From an uncultured Saprospiraceae bacterium (lineage in GTDB: Bacteria > Bacteroidota > Bacteroidia > Chitinophagales > Saprospiraceae): a DNA stretch of 35,703 bases. A program made the position numbers and the translations under genes. The DNA is taken from NCBI GenBank assembly GCA_937921595.1, contig CAKZTD010000211.1, forward strand, positions 1 through 35,703, written 5' to 3'. Below the pieces are notes generated by a model. That model did not search any database and was not told where the DNA came from. It was given only the letters and a program-made list of their open reading frames with translations. Within the stretch, counting starts at the first letter, position 1; the number at the start of each line of letters is the position of its first letter. Shown one piece after another: positions 1 through 19,828 of this stretch.

Positions 1-1364
1 GCAGCTTCTTGAGCTTTAGCCATGTCATCTTTGATCTCATCAACTTTCTCTTCGATCTTATCACCAACAACTTCTGCTACTGCTTTAATCGTATCAACAA
101 CATCTTCTAAGCTTTCACTGATAGTAGCACCAATTGCACCAAGTAAAGATTCATCAGTAGTTTTCTCTTCTTTCTCCTTTTTATCTTTGAGTGCCTCAGC
201 AGCTTTCTTGATTTTTTCAGAATCCTCTTCAGAGATTGAACTTTCTGCTTCTTTCATTTTTGAAGCGATCTTTTCTTTAGCTGCTTTTTTAGCGGCTTCC
301 ATTTCTTCTTGCTTCGCTGCTTTGGCTTTTAAAGAAGTTATCTTCGCTTCCAATTCTTCCTTTGTTTTGAGCATGTCATTAAGCTTTTCTTGCTTAGACT
401 TTACTCGCTCATCGACCATTTTTATTTTTGCCTGACGGATTTGTGCTTCAAGCTGTCCTTCAGAAGTTTCTACTTTTCTATTTTGAAAAGCAAGATCCTC
501 TTTGTCTCGATTGATAGAGCGATCCATTTTTTGAATGGCATTCATCAGACCATCATACCTTCTTTGAATTCGATCTAATGGAGTCGTTTCATTGTAAGCA
601 TTGTTACCAAAACGCTTTTCTTTGACTATTTTAAATGTGTCATCTATCTTTTGCCAAATCTTGGATCTATGTTCTTTATTAAAACGAGTTTCTTTAAAAT
701 CTCGTTGTATCTTCTTTAGCTCTTCGAAAATAACAGTCAGATTCATTCCTTCCGAAACTTTCTTTTCAATGCCTTCTAGGATGCCGTTGAATTTTTCGAA
801 ATGCTCTTTCGAAACACTGTTGAATTCTTCGTCAAGAGTACTCCGCATTTCTTTCATTTTGGTAAAAAGCGCATTGGTGCCATCACGCAAATGATCTGCA
901 TGCTCACGAAAGAGATTTTTTTCTCTAACTTGATTTTGCACCTTGCTCCAAAATGTTTTTAAAGATTCCCAGGTTGGAGAATCATAAGAAGAAAGTTGTT
1001 CAACCTTTTCTTTTAACTCAGCATATTCTTCCTGATACACCTGATTTAATTTTGCGGAAAGTACCACAAAATGCCACTCTGCCTGAGCTCTTTGAATCAA
1101 ATCTCCACGACTAACTTTTATGTCGTCAGGAAGTAAGCCGTCTGTAATCGATAATTCTCTTTCCAGATGTGTGTTTCCTTCCAGAAAATCTAGATCCTTG
1201 CCATTCCGCCAATCTTCCATTAACTTCTTTTCAAATTCTTCGGTTACAATACTTTCGGGGAAGGTCCAAATGTCTACCTTGTTTTCAAGAGATCGCAGGC
1301 TGATAGCAATTAATATTTTTTGCTCTTCAGCATTTGTTCCCCATAATACTAGCTTGGTTTTCAT
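1..1364 (-). CDS. DUF349-like coiled-coil protein (partial, 3' end outside window)
   Basis: The frame is open on the minus strand from the ATG at 1364-1362 to the window edge, giving 454 codons without a stop. The N-terminus (MKTKLVLWGTNAEE) has no signal peptide. Residues about 90-290 are helical, with W/F/R-rich stretches such as WESLKTFWSKV and FKETRFNKEHRSKIW that resemble DUF349 repeats. Residues about 290-420 are a strongly charged K/E/A coiled coil, and an acidic-amphipathic tail runs off the edge. It is probably cytoplasmic, and no enzymatic motif is visible. The DUF349 assignment is by eye and uncertain; a generic coiled-coil scaffold is the alternative. Coding character is clear from codon use over the whole length. 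Confidence 0.8.
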   Translation of the reverse strand, partial: MKTKLVLWGTNAEEQKILIAISLRSLENKVDIWTFPESIVTEEFEKKLMEDWRNGKDLDFLEGNTHLERELSITDGLLPDDIKVSRGDLIQRAQAEWHFVVLSAKLNQVYQEEYAELKEKVEQLSSYDSPTWESLKTFWSKVQNQVREKNLFREHADHLRDGTNALFTKMKEMRSTLDEEFNSVSKEHFEKFNGILEGIEKKVSEGMNLTVIFEELKKIQRDFKETRFNKEHRSKIWQKIDDTFKIVKEKRFGNNAYNETTPLDRIQRRYDGLMNAIQKMDRSINRDKEDLAFQNRKVETSEGQLEAQIRQAKIKMVDERVKSKQEKLNDMLKTKEELEAKITSLKAKAAKQEEMEAAKKAAKEKIASKMKEAESSISEEDSEKIKKAAEALKDKKEKEEKTTDESLLGAIGATISESLEDVVDTIKAVAEVVGDKIEEKVDEIKDDMAKAQEA

Positions 1365-15028: not shown

Positions 15029-15715
15029 ATGGATATCAAGAAAATCGTAAAAATTGCAGCTTTATTTGTTTTTCTCGCCTTAGAGACCGTGTCCCTAAAG
15101 GCTGTTGTTGTTTATTCTATTCCTTTGAAAGGGCAAGAACATCAGATTGGAAGTTTATTAAATTGGAATACCTCTAATGAGATTAATAGCCAGGTTTTCA
15201 TAGTCGAAAAATCTGCGGATGGTATTGACTATATGGTGATCGGAGAAGTAGAAGCGAAAGGAGAGTCTAATGCAGATAGTGGCTATCGGTTTTTAGATGT
15301 TGGTGTTAATAATGAGATGTCTTATTATCGATTAAGGCAAGTAGATACCGATGGAACTGCTAGCTTTTCGCAGACCATTCTGTTGAAAAAAACAATGAAT
15401 AATAATTACATGGTTTTGGCTATGACTAATACGGTAACGAATAATAATTTTACAATTACTTTGGATTCTTCGATTGATGATGAAATAGATTATGCTATAA
15501 AAAATCTTGCTGGTGAAACAGTTTTTATGTCAAAACAAGAAATTATTTTTGGTATTAATGAAATTACGGTGAATGTAGAAGATGAAGAAGAAGGTACTTA
15601 TTTCGTTGTTTTAAATATCAACGAAGAAGTTGAAAAGTTAGTCATTCGTAAGGTTGATGATGAAATCAAAAAGAAAGAAAATGTTGCTAGTAAAAAGCAA
15701 GCAAATGGCGGCTAA
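15029..15715 (+). CDS. Small exported protein, paralog 1 of a tandem pair
   Basis: The 228-aa protein has a signal peptide (about 1-25). The mature part begins with a fibronectin-like strand pattern (LLNWNTSNEINSQVFIVEKSADG, then YYRLRQVDTDGTASFS) that in Bacteroidota usually sits just before T9SS sorting domains. Residues about 125-210 (IDYAIKNLAGETVF to EEGTYFVVLNINEEVEKLVIRK) resemble a T9SS type A sorting domain. Unlike normal cargo, about 20 lysine-rich residues (VDDEIKKKENVASKKQANGG) follow it. There is no separate passenger domain. The neighbour at 15903 has the same layout, so the pair arose by duplication. The function is unknown. Confidence 0.8.
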   Translation: MDIKKIVKIAALFVFLALETVSLKAVVVYSIPLKGQEHQIGSLLNWNTSNEINSQVFIVEKSADGIDYMVIGEVEAKGESNADSGYRFLDVGVNNEMSYYRLRQVDTDGTASFSQTILLKKTMNNNYMVLAMTNTVTNNNFTITLDSSIDDEIDYAIKNLAGETVFMSKQEIIFGINEITVNVEDEEEGTYFVVLNINEEVEKLVIRKVDDEIKKKENVASKKQANGG

Positions 15716-15902: not shown

Positions 15903-16580
15903 ATGTCTAAGCCTACTTTGTCGAGACTGTTTCTTAGTCTTGTATGCCTAACGGTAATTAATTTTTCTAGCCTTTTTGCCGGAGTTATTTACGATAAAAA
16001 TTTTCAAGGAGAAGAACAAGAAGTCGGGATTGTCTTAACCTGGAGTACTTCTTCAGAAGAAGATAATTCATTATTTGTGATTGAAAAAGCAACAGATGGT
16101 GAAGATTTTGAAAGCATAGGAGCTGTAGGAGGAACTGGAGATTCTGATGTATTGACAGAGTATAATTTTTTCGATTTTAATGTTCATGGAACTTATATCC
16201 TTTATCGACTTAAACAATTAGATGAAGATGGAACCGTAAATTATTCTAAACCACTTTTTATCAATAAAGTGAATGAAAATAATTTTATGGTAGCAAGAAT
16301 GTCCGATGTGATGACCACTGGAAAATTTGAAGTAACATTTGATATGATGATTGATTCGAACATGGAATATCATTTGACAAATGCGAGAGGTGAAACGGTG
16401 GTTAAAGAAAATATGGATTTCAAAAAAGGAATCAATGACATTGTCATAGGAATGGAAGATGCTGAATCAGGAACTTATAAACTCAGTCTAAGAGTAGATG
16501 ACGAAGAGGAGATTATTACTTTTAAAAAGATAAAAAGCGAAGCTCAAAAAAATAAAGCGGTTACTGCAAAAAAAGATTAA
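15903..16580 (+). CDS. Small exported protein, paralog 2 of a tandem pair
   Basis: The 225-aa product has the same domain order as the upstream gene: signal peptide to about residue 26 (cleavage after LFAG or nearby), then IVLTWSTSSEEDNSLFVIEKATDG and YRLKQLDEDGTVNYSKP, then a sorting-domain-like part (YHLTNARGETVV to GTYKLSLRVDDEEEIITFKK) and a lysine-rich tail (IKSEAQKNKAVTAKKD). It matches paralog 1 in most structural positions but the two are clearly diverged, so the duplication is not recent. The 187-nt gap contains an inverted repeat but no good promoter; cotranscription is possible. A terminator follows at 16611. Confidence 0.8.
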   Translation: MSKPTLSRLFLSLVCLTVINFSSLFAGVIYDKNFQGEEQEVGIVLTWSTSSEEDNSLFVIEKATDGEDFESIGAVGGTGDSDVLTEYNFFDFNVHGTYILYRLKQLDEDGTVNYSKPLFINKVNENNFMVARMSDVMTTGKFEVTFDMMIDSNMEYHLTNARGETVVKENMDFKKGINDIVIGMEDAESGTYKLSLRVDDEEEIITFKKIKSEAQKNKAVTAKKD

Positions 16581-17332: not shown

Positions 17333-17399
17333 AATGGATAGAAGTAATATTGAACAATTATTGTTACATTCACTATCAAAGAAAACTTAAGCATACGAT

Positions 17400-18164
17400 A
17401 TGGGAAAAATTATCTCTTTGTTGAACCACAAAGGTGGTGTTGGTAAGACTACGAGCGCAATTAACATTGGTGCCGGTCTAGTAGAATTAGGAAAAAGAAC
17501 ATTATTAATTGATCTTGATCCTCAAGCCAACCTCACCCTTTCCTTAGGTATCCCACGTCAGAAAGTTACAATCTATGAAGCACTAAGAGGAGAAGCAGAA
17601 TTAGAACCTTTTACTTACAAAGAAGGTTTAGATGTTATCACTTCTTCTTTAGATCTATCCAGTGCAGAAATGGAATTGATTAACGAAGCTGGCCGTGAGT
17701 ATATTCTACGCGAATTATTCGAAACCGTAATCGAGGATTATGATTACATTATCATTGACTGTCCACCATCTCTTGGTCTATTGACTTTGAATGCGTTGAC
17801 TTGTAGTGATTATGTATACATTCCTTTGCAGACGGAATTTTTAGCCCTTCAAGGCTTAGCTAAAATCAAACAGATCATCGACAAGGTTCGATTCCGTTTG
17901 AATAAAAAACTACAGATAGGTGGCGTTATTGCTACGATGTTTGATAAGCGAAAAGTGCTGAATCGCGATGTTGTCGAAACCATCAGAAAGTATTTTGGTG
18001 AAAAAGTTTTTGATACAATGATCCGTGATAATGTTGCACTTGCTGAAGCTCCTGCACAAAGAATGGACATCTTTTCTTATAGCAAAAGAAGCAAAGGGGC
18101 TGAAGATTATTTGTCGCTTTGTAAAGAAATTTTACAAAGAACGCAGGTAAGTGTTGAAGCTTAG
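17400..18164 (+). CDS. parA: ParA/Soj-family ATPase
   Basis: This deviant Walker ATPase binds DNA non-specifically as an ATP dimer and positions chromosomes or other cargo on the nucleoid. The 254-aa length and motifs are standard: deviant P-loop HKGGVGKTTS (10-19) with the signature lysine, A' motif LIDLDPQANLT (D40), and Walker B DYIIIDCPPSLG (D120). There is no N-terminal DNA-binding extension, so it is the short Soj-like (type Ib) form. The usual downstream parB with a KorB/HTH domain is absent. A small RHH-like protein gene follows 59 nt later on the same strand. It may therefore be either the chromosomal ParA with a distant ParB or a cargo-positioning ParA. Confidence 0.94.
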   Translation: MGKIISLLNHKGGVGKTTSAINIGAGLVELGKRTLLIDLDPQANLTLSLGIPRQKVTIYEALRGEAELEPFTYKEGLDVITSSLDLSSAEMELINEAGREYILRELFETVIEDYDYIIIDCPPSLGLLTLNALTCSDYVYIPLQTEFLALQGLAKIKQIIDKVRFRLNKKLQIGGVIATMFDKRKVLNRDVVETIRKYFGEKVFDTMIRDNVALAEAPAQRMDIFSYSKRSKGAEDYLSLCKEILQRTQVSVEA

Positions 18165-18223
18165 GGTTTAAATTTACCCCCCAAATGAGAAAACCACATT
18201 TTAATTAATTAATCCAGAAGGGT

Positions 18224-18763
18224 TTGAGCAAGAAAAAATTTACAACAGGATTAGATAGCTTATTTGGAAATCTTTCTGAAAAAGCTTTCCAAGAAGAGAG
18301 TCCTTTTCTCGATGTAGAAGAGGAAACTCCTAAAAAGCGAGCGCGTAAGGAAGAGGCAGACCGATCTTCTAAAGGGGCATCTGCTGCTACTGCTGTTGCA
18401 AAACGCAGTAACAAAAATTTTACTTCGGATCTAGAATCACTGTTCGAACAAGCTATGTCGGAAACGATAGAGGAAAAACTCGAAGAGGCGAATCAAAAAG
18501 AGGTCGTAAAACGTAAAGCTCAGAAACGACGACGTCCACTCTCCGGTTTGGATGCTCTTATCCGTAGAACCGACGGAATGGATTTTGTCGAAGTTAATGT
18601 GCCGAATAAAAAACGCGTTACTTTTGTTTTCGATAAGAAGAAGCTAGAACAGCTTAAAGGCATTGCCAAAAGTAAGAAACTATATCTTAAGGATATTATC
18701 GGCGATGTGATGACTAGTTTTATTGAAAAATACGAAAATGGGGAAATAGGAGAAATCGCTTAA
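18224..18763 (+). CDS. Small RHH-like protein with three ParB-style LDxLF motifs, probable ParA partner
   Basis: The 179-aa protein starts with TTG (18224), preceded by AGAAGGG. A TAA lies six codons upstream and the first in-frame ATG is codon 78, so TTG is the only reasonable start. Its N-terminus, KKFTTGLDSLF (4-14), resembles the GLDALF-like N-terminal peptide of ParB/Spo0J that contacts ParA. Related motifs recur at 64-74 (KNFTSDLESLF) and 104-113 (RPLSGLDALI). They are separated by charged, low-complexity linkers with basic patches (PKKRARK, KRKAQKRRR). Residues 129-171 (KKRVTFVFDKKKLEQL and onward) fit a strand-helix-helix ribbon-helix-helix DNA-binding fold. No KorB or HTH domain is present. 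The partner role is inferred from context and motifs. Confidence 0.72.
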   Translation: MSKKKFTTGLDSLFGNLSEKAFQEESPFLDVEEETPKKRARKEEADRSSKGASAATAVAKRSNKNFTSDLESLFEQAMSETIEEKLEEANQKEVVKRKAQKRRRPLSGLDALIRRTDGMDFVEVNVPNKKRVTFVFDKKKLEQLKGIAKSKKLYLKDIIGDVMTSFIEKYENGEIGEIA

Positions 18764-18904: not shown

Positions 18905-19828
18905 ATGAAACGGCTGGAGGATTTTCGAATATTCTATAATCATACCATTCATCCCGAATTGATGAGATTGGAGCGAAAGCGGAAACGTTTATTGCTCTTG
19001 CTGTTTTCTGCATTATTTTTACTGGGGGCGACGCTCTTTTTGCAGTTTTATCTAAATATTCTGGTCGTTAGCCTTATTTTGATGCTTCCCTTCGGGTTTT
19101 ATATTACCTTCATTCTTTATCGGATCCAGCGTTTTAAAACGACTTTTAAACCTCATGTAGTCAATTTGATCCTAGATTTCATTGACGATGACTTAAATTT
19201 CGGTGCTTTAAAATATAACAGCAAACGTTTTATCCCTAAAGATCGTTTTCTAGCTAGTAAAATTTTTGTAACCAAAGCTCCCGAGTATCAAGGAGAGGAT
19301 TTTATCAGCGGTAAAATTGGAGAATTGGATTTTGAGATGTGCGAATTGAATGTAAAAGAGTTTTCTAAGGTTCGAAATCGTCTGAATTATGTTTTTAAAG
19401 GCGTTTTTTTACATACAAACTTTAATAGATCGTTAAGAGGAGAGATAATTGTATTGCCAGAAGAATTTAAACAATACCTTTCTCGTTCAATAAAGGCATT
19501 TAATGGTATTGGAGGTGTGAATGTTAGTGGTGCTTTATCGGAAAGATTCAATGAATATTTCATGACTTTTGCGACAAGAGATGCGAATGTGACCGGTATT
19601 CTATCTGAAGATATGCAAAATGCTATTGTCGATTACCGGATAACTTCAGGAAAGGAAATCTATGTTTCTTTTATTCAACAAGATATTTATATCGGAATTA
19701 CTGAACCAAAGGACATACTTGAACCTTATATATTCAGATCGAATATGAGCTTTGAATTGGTCAGAGAATTTTTTGAAGACATTCATGTATTGCTCAGTAT
19801 CATTGAAGATCTGGATAGAAATGATTAA
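18905..19828 (+). CDS. DUF3137-like membrane protein
   Basis: The 307-aa product has a basic N-terminal segment (HPELMRLERKRKR), then two transmembrane helices (about 29-50 and 52-72), then a soluble domain. In that domain, FKGVFLHTNFNRSLRGEIIVLPEEF (about 165-190) matches the pattern of DUF3137 proteins. Later segments, YFMTFATRDANVTGILSEDM and ISFIQQDIYIGI-like strands, also fit. The C-terminus is acidic (IIEDLDRND). No catalytic residues are evident and the function is unknown. It has its own promoter and is followed at 16 nt by the TraB gene, so the two form an operon. The family call is by pattern and moderately sure. Confidence 0.78.
   Translation: MKRLEDFRIFYNHTIHPELMRLERKRKRLLLLLFSALFLLGATLFLQFYLNILVVSLILMLPFGFYITFILYRIQRFKTTFKPHVVNLILDFIDDDLNFGALKYNSKRFIPKDRFLASKIFVTKAPEYQGEDFISGKIGELDFEMCELNVKEFSKVRNRLNYVFKGVFLHTNFNRSLRGEIIVLPEEFKQYLSRSIKAFNGIGGVNVSGALSERFNEYFMTFATRDANVTGILSEDMQNAIVDYRITSGKEIYVSFIQQDIYIGITEPKDILEPYIFRSNMSFELVREFFEDIHVLLSIIEDLDRND

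Follow-up and report, generated by a model that had tools for sequence, protein, structure and literature searches.

Genes and features of the locus

The window (the whole stretch of DNA that was analysed, 35,703 nucleotides from an uncultured Saprospiraceae bacterium) carries a gene for a second ParA, designated ParA2, followed by a gene for a small protein, here called the partner; the features of the locus are collected in Table 1. Both open reading frames (ORFs) were located where a preliminary description of this DNA, made from the sequence, had placed them. ParA2 gave a match to AAA_31 (E = 1.2e-57 over residues 3-173), with its Walker A motif at residues 11-17, and the partner had no Pfam family above the cut-off and no NCBIfam family listed.

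Table 1. Features of the parA2 locus (positions are those of the window)
Feature	Position	Strand	Description
Leader immediately 5' of parA2	17364..17399	+	Alike in five sampled genus members
ParA2 (second ParA), 254 aa	17400..18164	+	Intact deviant Walker A KGGVGKT; without N-terminal DNA-binding domain
Shine-Dalgarno-like AGAAGGG	18216..18222	+	Directly 5' of the partner TTG; predicted from sequence, putative function
Partner, 179 aa	18224..18763	+	Three ParB-type motifs, variable basic/acidic linkers, C-terminal RHH-like domain; TTG start
Motif 1, residues 6-14 (FTTGLDSLF)	18239..18265	+	Preceded by KKK; from alignment and profile scan
Motif 2, residues 66-74 (FTSDLESLF)	18419..18445	+	Preceded by K64; from alignment and profile scan
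Motif 3, residues 105-116 (PLSGLDALIRRT)	18536..18571	+	D110, L112 and T116 invariant in 25/25
RHH-like domain, about residues 129-172	18608..18739	+	Strand KRVTF (R131 invariant) and two helices, by resemblance to ParG and CopG

The TTG of the partner lies 59 bases past the end of the ParA2 ORF in the window and is the sole usual start codon ahead of motif 1, in a frame which is open from position 18209. The preliminary description had called this start obligatory and had suggested that it might keep the partner at a low level. The first point holds for the window and fails for the family, where the partners start with TTG (9), GTG (7) or ATG (9) (n = 25). The second can be extended only as a bias away from ATG, which was found in 16 of 25 partners and in none of 25 ParA2 genes, all of which start with ATG (Fisher test, P = 8e-7, kinship ignored). 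Such non-ATG starts are consistent with a low partner-to-ParA ratio and are not proof of it. Full-length partners were 140-180 amino acids long (n = 25), a size which exceeds the usual range of type Ib partners.

Three ParB-type motifs in the partner

The three motifs reported in the preliminary description were confirmed at residues 5-14 (KFTTGLDSLF), 64-74 (KNFTSDLESLF) and 104-113 (RPLSGLDALI), with basic residues upstream of motif 1 (K3-K5) and motif 2 (K64) in the window protein. They recur across an alignment of 25 partners (30-69% identity to the window protein), in which the linkers vary in both sequence and length. Motifs 1 and 2 share the consensus K-x-F-x-x-[GD]-L-x-x-L-F in many rows, and the majority form of motif 3 is S-G-L-D-A-L-I-R-x-T.

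For each of the 25 partners, the remainder of the protein was searched with a leave-one-out profile of motif 1, and the scores were compared with composition shuffles (the scoring involved a division by zero for one residue absent from the set). The best match was significant at P <0.01 in 15 of 25 partners and the second-best at P <0.05 in 23. In 17 of the partners the two highest-scoring matches were motifs 2 and 3, and in the other 8 one of the two lay elsewhere. For the window partner the top two matches were exactly residues 66-74 and 105-113 (both P = 0.001). When a profile of 23 ParB motifs was used, a site with P <0.05 was found in 16 of 25 partners (motif 3 in 14, motif 2 in one and motif 1 in one), and 9 of 25 had no significant site.

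According to the available sections of a study on Myxococcus xanthus (PMC12462528), ParB residues L11, L15, L18 and I19 dock into a pocket of the ParA dimer, and an R13A exchange nearly abolishes ATPase stimulation and moderately reduces ParA binding. The partner motifs match this hydrophobic pattern as given there, with the first hydrophobic position being non-hydrophobic in most copies of motif 3. The central Arg/Lys is absent from all three motifs of the window partner and, on visual inspection, from 74 of 75 motifs, the exception being motif 3 of one genome (G034). The possibility that this absence is the sign of a non-activating partner was considered and dropped, as K/R was also absent from that position in 16 of the 23 ParB motifs compared (a recognisable motif was present in 23 of 30 ParBs). 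Because just 7 of the 23 have a central K/R, the partner motifs, if activating, may use other residues instead.

The C-terminal domain

A profile of the partner family matched ParG (1p94, E = 9.3e-4) and ORF56 (2k9i, E = 0.0058), and a match to the PHROG 'Arc-like repressor' (E = 0.014) covered residues 127-172; as judged from sequence, the C-terminus of the partner is ribbon-helix-helix (RHH)-like. Strand residues R131 and T133 align with CopG and partly with ParG, in which the equivalent residues presumably contact DNA. The central claim of the preliminary description, namely that a ParA has as its partner an RHH-like protein with three ParB-like motifs, is upheld by the alignment, the motif scans and the ParG profile match.

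Distribution and conservation of the pair

Using the window partner as the query, matches were obtained in 26 of 60 sampled genomes, all from its own family (26 of 37; Saprospiraceae, assigned by named relatives), and in none of the 23 sampled genomes from other families of the order. An orthologous ParA (at least 71% identity) was present in exactly the same 26 genomes, with the partner downstream of it on the same strand in every case, and co-conservation of the two genes, which had been proposed as a check, was thereby borne out. The partner starts between -4 and 176 bases past the ParA stop codon in 24 of the 26 carriers; the gap is 624 bases in one (G023), and in another (G030) a contig break divides the pair, ParA and the N-terminal half of the partner after it lying at one contig end and the overlapping rest at another. 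Stop codons were found in 4 of the 26 partner matches, each at an end where the match overruns the ORF, and none was internal.

A profile of 25 partners detected 87 of 396 genomes of the order, comprising 86 from the family (some already sampled) and one outsider, in which the RHH part alone was matched. The phylum-wide profile search detected 11 of 395 genomes, comprising 3 from the family and 8 from outside it, the latter being weak matches that in 7 cases covered the RHH part alone; a ParA-like gene, 35-45% identical, lies near 4 of these 8 loci.

Among the best 80 named relatives of ParA2 (a list which overlaps the 26 carriers), 75 have a partner ORF, and 66 of these 75 partners have three sites by a permissive fixed pattern. 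In several of the other nine, visual inspection showed all three motifs with changed letters; truncation or a cut affects at least two (L229, L201). Where the partner was missing, three loci (L181, L187, L200) are cut by contig ends and two (L204, L208) are real misses. The relatives come mostly from Saprospiraceae metagenome-assembled genomes (MAGs) and from Neolewinella, Lewinella, Flavilitoribacter, Phaeodactylibacter, Saprospira and Aureispira, and some are labelled just Bacteroidetes, Bacteroidota, Bacteroidia or Chitinophagales. In the two real misses, one of which is a record labelled Saprospira grandis, ParA2 stands without an adjoining partner. An orphan ParA 59% identical to ParA2 was also seen in another family of the order (L062, G047:C182), on a contig which ends about 0.5 kb further on.

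The pair is missing from 11 of the 37 family genomes, and the 26 genomes with it are larger than the 11 without (Mann-Whitney P = 0.003, from rounded sizes and with kinship ignored). Mean identity was 0.77 for ParA2 as against 0.685 for Soj, the chromosomal ParA of the same genomes (171 pairs); by this sequence measure, ParA2 is under strong constraint. It is extremely improbable that the pair represents the remnant of an integrated plasmid, either functionless or only autoregulated: such a remnant would fit with the absence from 11 genomes and with neighbouring genes which vary between genera, but the 26 matches contain no internal stops, the motifs are kept while the linkers drift, and ParA2 identity is high.

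Neighbouring genes, the ordinary parABS and the possible cargo

Gene clusters were compared around 27 loci (the 26 carriers and G047), with ParA found in 26 and the partner in 25 (the ORF calls missed the partner of L044). A cargo gene in the operon was sought and rejected, as no neighbour was conserved across genera and the next-best clusters reached 7 of 27 loci. A DUF3137 gene, at 18905-19828 in the window, is common to six loci, five of which are those of the genus. The operon looks like a free two-gene module in its sequence context. Two further observations were made in the surroundings: a gene of about 550 amino acids, cytochrome-like by eye (fragment QEKCVSCHSN), lies directly 3' of the partner in L047, L048, L051 and L060, and the window encodes tandem paralogous, secreted-looking proteins of 228 and 225 amino acids (15029-15715 and 15903-16580), which fall in one cluster.

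A chromosomal location is indicated by near-complete carriers, in 9 of 10 of which one contig holds both the pair and dnaA. In the window's genome, one ParB (the single ParB_N match) was found adjoining Soj on contig C414 and four perfect parS sites were found on C46, while no parS 16-mer was present on the window's own contig (C211, 35.7 kb) with up to one mismatch allowed. A separate canonical parAB with parS, for which the preliminary description had asked that the genome be searched, is thus present, and the case it had named against its own reading (ParA2 as the only ParA, in a pair not conserved together) does not hold. ParB is encoded elsewhere in 25 of 26 carriers and in 10 of 10 further near-complete carriers; the carrier with no ParB match (G009) may reflect a gap, because both of its genus-mates (2/2) have ParB.

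The distance from the pair to the main parS cluster was 0.55-1.34 Mb in eight near-complete genomes from four genera (G308, with pair and parS on separate contigs, was left out of the distance count). In G295, a 5.9 Mb genome which is not closed, the pair lies 2.69 Mb from the main parS cluster on the same contig; an origin-side location was dropped as contradicted by this genome, the pair having no fixed position. In three near-complete genomes (G203, G211, G334) canonical parB itself departs from the usual linkage with parS and lies at a great distance from the main parS cluster; in one example, parB is at 5.79 Mb and parS at 2.36 Mb in a 7.5 Mb single-contig genome. Two more divergent ParA-like genes were seen in the window's genome (L066, G000:C387, and L067, G000:C18), the first being followed by a 121-amino-acid protein starting MAKKKF, which we take to be, perhaps, a conjugative-element pair.

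The 250 bp upstream of parA2 contained no shared palindrome or k-mer enrichment, AT-rich noise being all that was found. With no centromere-like site found there and a canonical parABS already present, it could be proposed that the pair is a cargo-positioning system like McdAB or ParC, which carries a protein complex instead of partitioning DNA, its RHH domain acting mainly as a dimerisation or operon-repressor module; ParA/MinD ATPases position many protein cargos, according to the available sections of PMC10241942. This proposal is considered unlikely, as no neighbour conserved across genera offers itself as a candidate cargo, R131 and T133 of the strand can be aligned with CopG and, in part, with ParG, and the annotation of one plasmid cousin is that of a partition protein.

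Probable plasmid ancestry

The closest plasmid ParAs were up to 63% identical to ParA2, as against 42% for the genome's own Soj. In a midpoint-rooted tree of 68 ParAs, the 25 ParA2 sequences formed one clade (support 100/100) and, together with 11 plasmid and 4 other rows, were split from 25 Soj sequences at 99/93. Forks among the plasmid rows were weak to moderate, several of those nesting ParA2 among plasmids having support of 90/77, 93/80 and 91/85; three plasmid rows fell outside the ParA2/plasmid clade and seven rows had long branches. ParA2 had been described as Soj-like: it is a ParA, but its ancestry is of the plasmid type, the closest relatives found being plasmid pairs, and it groups apart from Soj. 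The ParA2 clade would fit with a single origin, yet 11 of the 37 family genomes lack the gene, through either loss or late gain. An argument for vertical inheritance from rank correlations of pairwise distances (ParA2-Soj 0.31, ParA2-ParB 0.34, Soj-ParB 0.37) was abandoned, as the ParA2 values are weak, yet that of Soj-ParB is weak as well.

The closest ParAs found in the plasmid collection belong to Bacteroidota plasmid pairs (pA5BP1 of Flavobacterium and plasmids of Tenacibaculum, Adhaeribacter and Bacteroides), which share with the chromosomal pair a partner after ParA, an N-terminal GLxxL-type motif near a lysine-rich start and an RHH-like end, and which differ in having one motif, a length of 85-122 amino acids and a location on plasmids. 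Nine of the 15 plasmid loci read (L136, L137, L138, L140, L142, L143, L144, L150 and the second small ORF of L141) encode, beside a ParA 53-63% identical to ParA2, a partner of this size which has an RHH-like end and in which visual inspection showed a single N-terminal motif. The motif is MAKKSFSGGLNSLL in L136 and GGLDSLIQST in L142 and L143, and the partner of L144 is annotated 'plasmid partition protein ParG'. In the other 6 of 15 loci, a complete RHH-like partner with one motif was not found beside ParA: L139, the same kind of Lawsonia locus as L150, is cut at the end of its record, and L145-L149 have other partners or no clear motif. The family profile detected the partners of L136-L138, L140, L142 and L143 but not the first ORF of L141 (seven tested). 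No match to the partner was obtained by tblastn among 72,556 plasmid records (E ≤0.1), nor by peptide patterns across the genome contig collection. In the sequences compared, one motif appears to be the plasmid state and three the chromosomal state, and the three may have arisen by duplication.

The grouping of ParA2 with plasmid ParAs, together with other plasmid-like pairs of a ParA and a small partner in the family (G013:C221, G018:C209, G019:C50), would also be in keeping with an interference device, in which a chromosomal plasmid-type par destabilises incoming plasmids with a related par; a precedent is ParI of Pseudomonas putida, as presented in the available sections of PMC9178275. We regard this as highly unlikely, since fast turnover would be expected of such a device, yet ParA2 is more conserved than Soj, and the three motifs are left unexplained by the device alone.

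The putative ParA2 pocket and DNA-binding residues

The pocket was placed on the window ParA via PDB 8ray, whose numbering reproduces the residues named in the available sections of PMC12462528 and which is on that ground taken as the published M. xanthus D60A construct. Pocket residues L125, L127 and L130 (window numbering) are conserved in 25/25 ParA2 sequences and L167 in 24/25. Position K162 (equivalent to M. xanthus L187) is Lys in 25/25 ParA2 and 9/12 plasmid-type relatives, and Leu/Ile in 23/25 Soj, while motif position 16 (after the central Leu) is acidic in 23/25 copies of motif 1, 16/25 of motif 2 and 25/25 of motif 3 (for motif 3 the search pattern itself required Asp, the invariance coming from the alignment); these counts are from related, hence not independent, sequences and use numbering obtained through 8ray. 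In 23 ParB motifs, position 16 is Arg/Lys in 14 and Asp in 3. K162 and the acidic motif residue may together form a specificity switch insulating the pair from Soj/ParB.

Motif 3 is the best by the ParB profile and differs from motifs 1 and 2 before GL, and position 16 varies most in motif 2, as might be expected if a single motif (1 or 3) contacted ParA2 and the others bound, for example, Soj (the second ATPase) or each other. This arrangement, which would be compatible with the rest of the explanation favoured below, is thought rather unlikely, as motif 2 of G032 is KLSGLDALF (the ParB form) and motif 1 of G009 is FSLGLDALF, such that all three positions can take the same form.

An exchange of R238 in M. 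xanthus ParA removes non-specific DNA binding, as described in the available sections of PMC12462528; the equivalent residue is Ala (22) or Ser (3) in the 25 ParA2 sequences. Soj R186 and R210 are lost in most ParA2 sequences and R184 is kept. New basic residues, K185, R189 and R209, occupy positions that are mostly Leu, Asn and His in Soj. On this pattern of residues, nucleoid binding by ParA2 is likely.

Comparison with known systems

The type Ib system ParF/ParG of TP228 (and delta/omega of pSM19035) resembles the pair in its ParA without an N-terminal DNA-binding domain, its small downstream RHH partner and its N-terminal ParA-contacting tail, whereas the pair is chromosomal, is present in much of a family and has a partner of 140-180 amino acids with three motifs; no centromere-like site was found in the 250 bp upstream of parA2. 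Measured against the definition of type Ib, ParA2 has no N-terminal HTH and a small partner, RHH by sequence profile, lies directly downstream; in place of a single basic ParA-activating element in the N-terminal tail there are three motifs, with no central basic residue in the window.

The chromosomal ParABS (Soj/Spo0J) of the same genomes has in common with the pair a GLxALL/F-type ParB motif and the conserved ParA pocket leucines, and differs in its ParB_N domain and parS, in the separate clade of Soj, and at K162 and the acidic motif residue. No ParB with a ParB/Srx CTPase domain lies next to ParA2, and no parS was found near the locus (C211, 35.7 kb).

In the available sections of PMC13170346, ParA/MinD systems other than PomXYZ are described as having a single activating protein, with one short peptide at or near its N-terminus. 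PomX/PomY/PomZ of Myxococcus is like the pair in having more than one ATPase-contacting element per positioning system, and PomY alpha5 is reported there to overlap the ParB site without a basic residue; the difference is that two proteins provide two sites in PomXYZ, whereas one motif is repeated in a single chain here. Among open-licence PMC papers, searched by title and start of abstract, none was found on this pair or on a ParA partner with three docking motifs.

Proposed function and significance

The pair is probably a ParA-type partition or positioning module with a multivalent partner, which an ancestor of a large part of the Saprospiraceae acquired from the ParA/ParG-like pair of a Bacteroidota plasmid and which has been retained on the chromosome alongside the ordinary parABS. 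This reading is based on co-conserved neighbouring genes, the grouping of ParA2 with plasmid ParAs, RHH profile similarity, and three motifs as against one in the plasmid cousins; from these we infer that the partner dimerises and has a DNA site, that each of the three motifs contacts ParA, and that the pair is insulated and produces movement. In such a module, ATP-bound ParA2 dimers would coat the nucleoid, and the partner would dimerise through its RHH domain and hold a DNA site (or, less likely, other cargo). Up to six motifs per partner dimer could then dock in the ParA2 pocket, such that one complex would bridge several ParA2 dimers, and the resulting avidity would allow few partner molecules (as suggested by the non-ATG starts) to suffice. 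Hydrolysis would free ParA2 and move or space the cargo by a diffusion-ratchet, while K162 of the pocket and the acidic motif residue would prevent mixing with Soj/ParB. The most likely function is diffusion-ratchet transport or tethering by ParA2, with a multivalent RHH protein as the adaptor and DNA as the favoured cargo.

A natural three-motif partner would allow a direct test of whether valency sets tethering strength and step, and the kinship between the one-motif partners of plasmids and the three-motif partners of chromosomes means that the change between them can be dissected. The K162/acidic swap suggests a rule, open to testing, by which cross-talk between two ParA systems could be avoided. 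For the family, it is plausible that a plasmid partition module has been kept by the chromosome across much of the Saprospiraceae. More tentatively, and with some doubt on our part, the Saprospiraceae may possess two insulated ParA machines, the second being a domesticated plasmid par whose partner went from one to three putative docking motifs (six per dimer), and whose avidity would crosslink nucleoid-bound ParA dimers with little or no ATPase activation per motif, so as to tether or space chromosomal sites rather than only pull a centromere.
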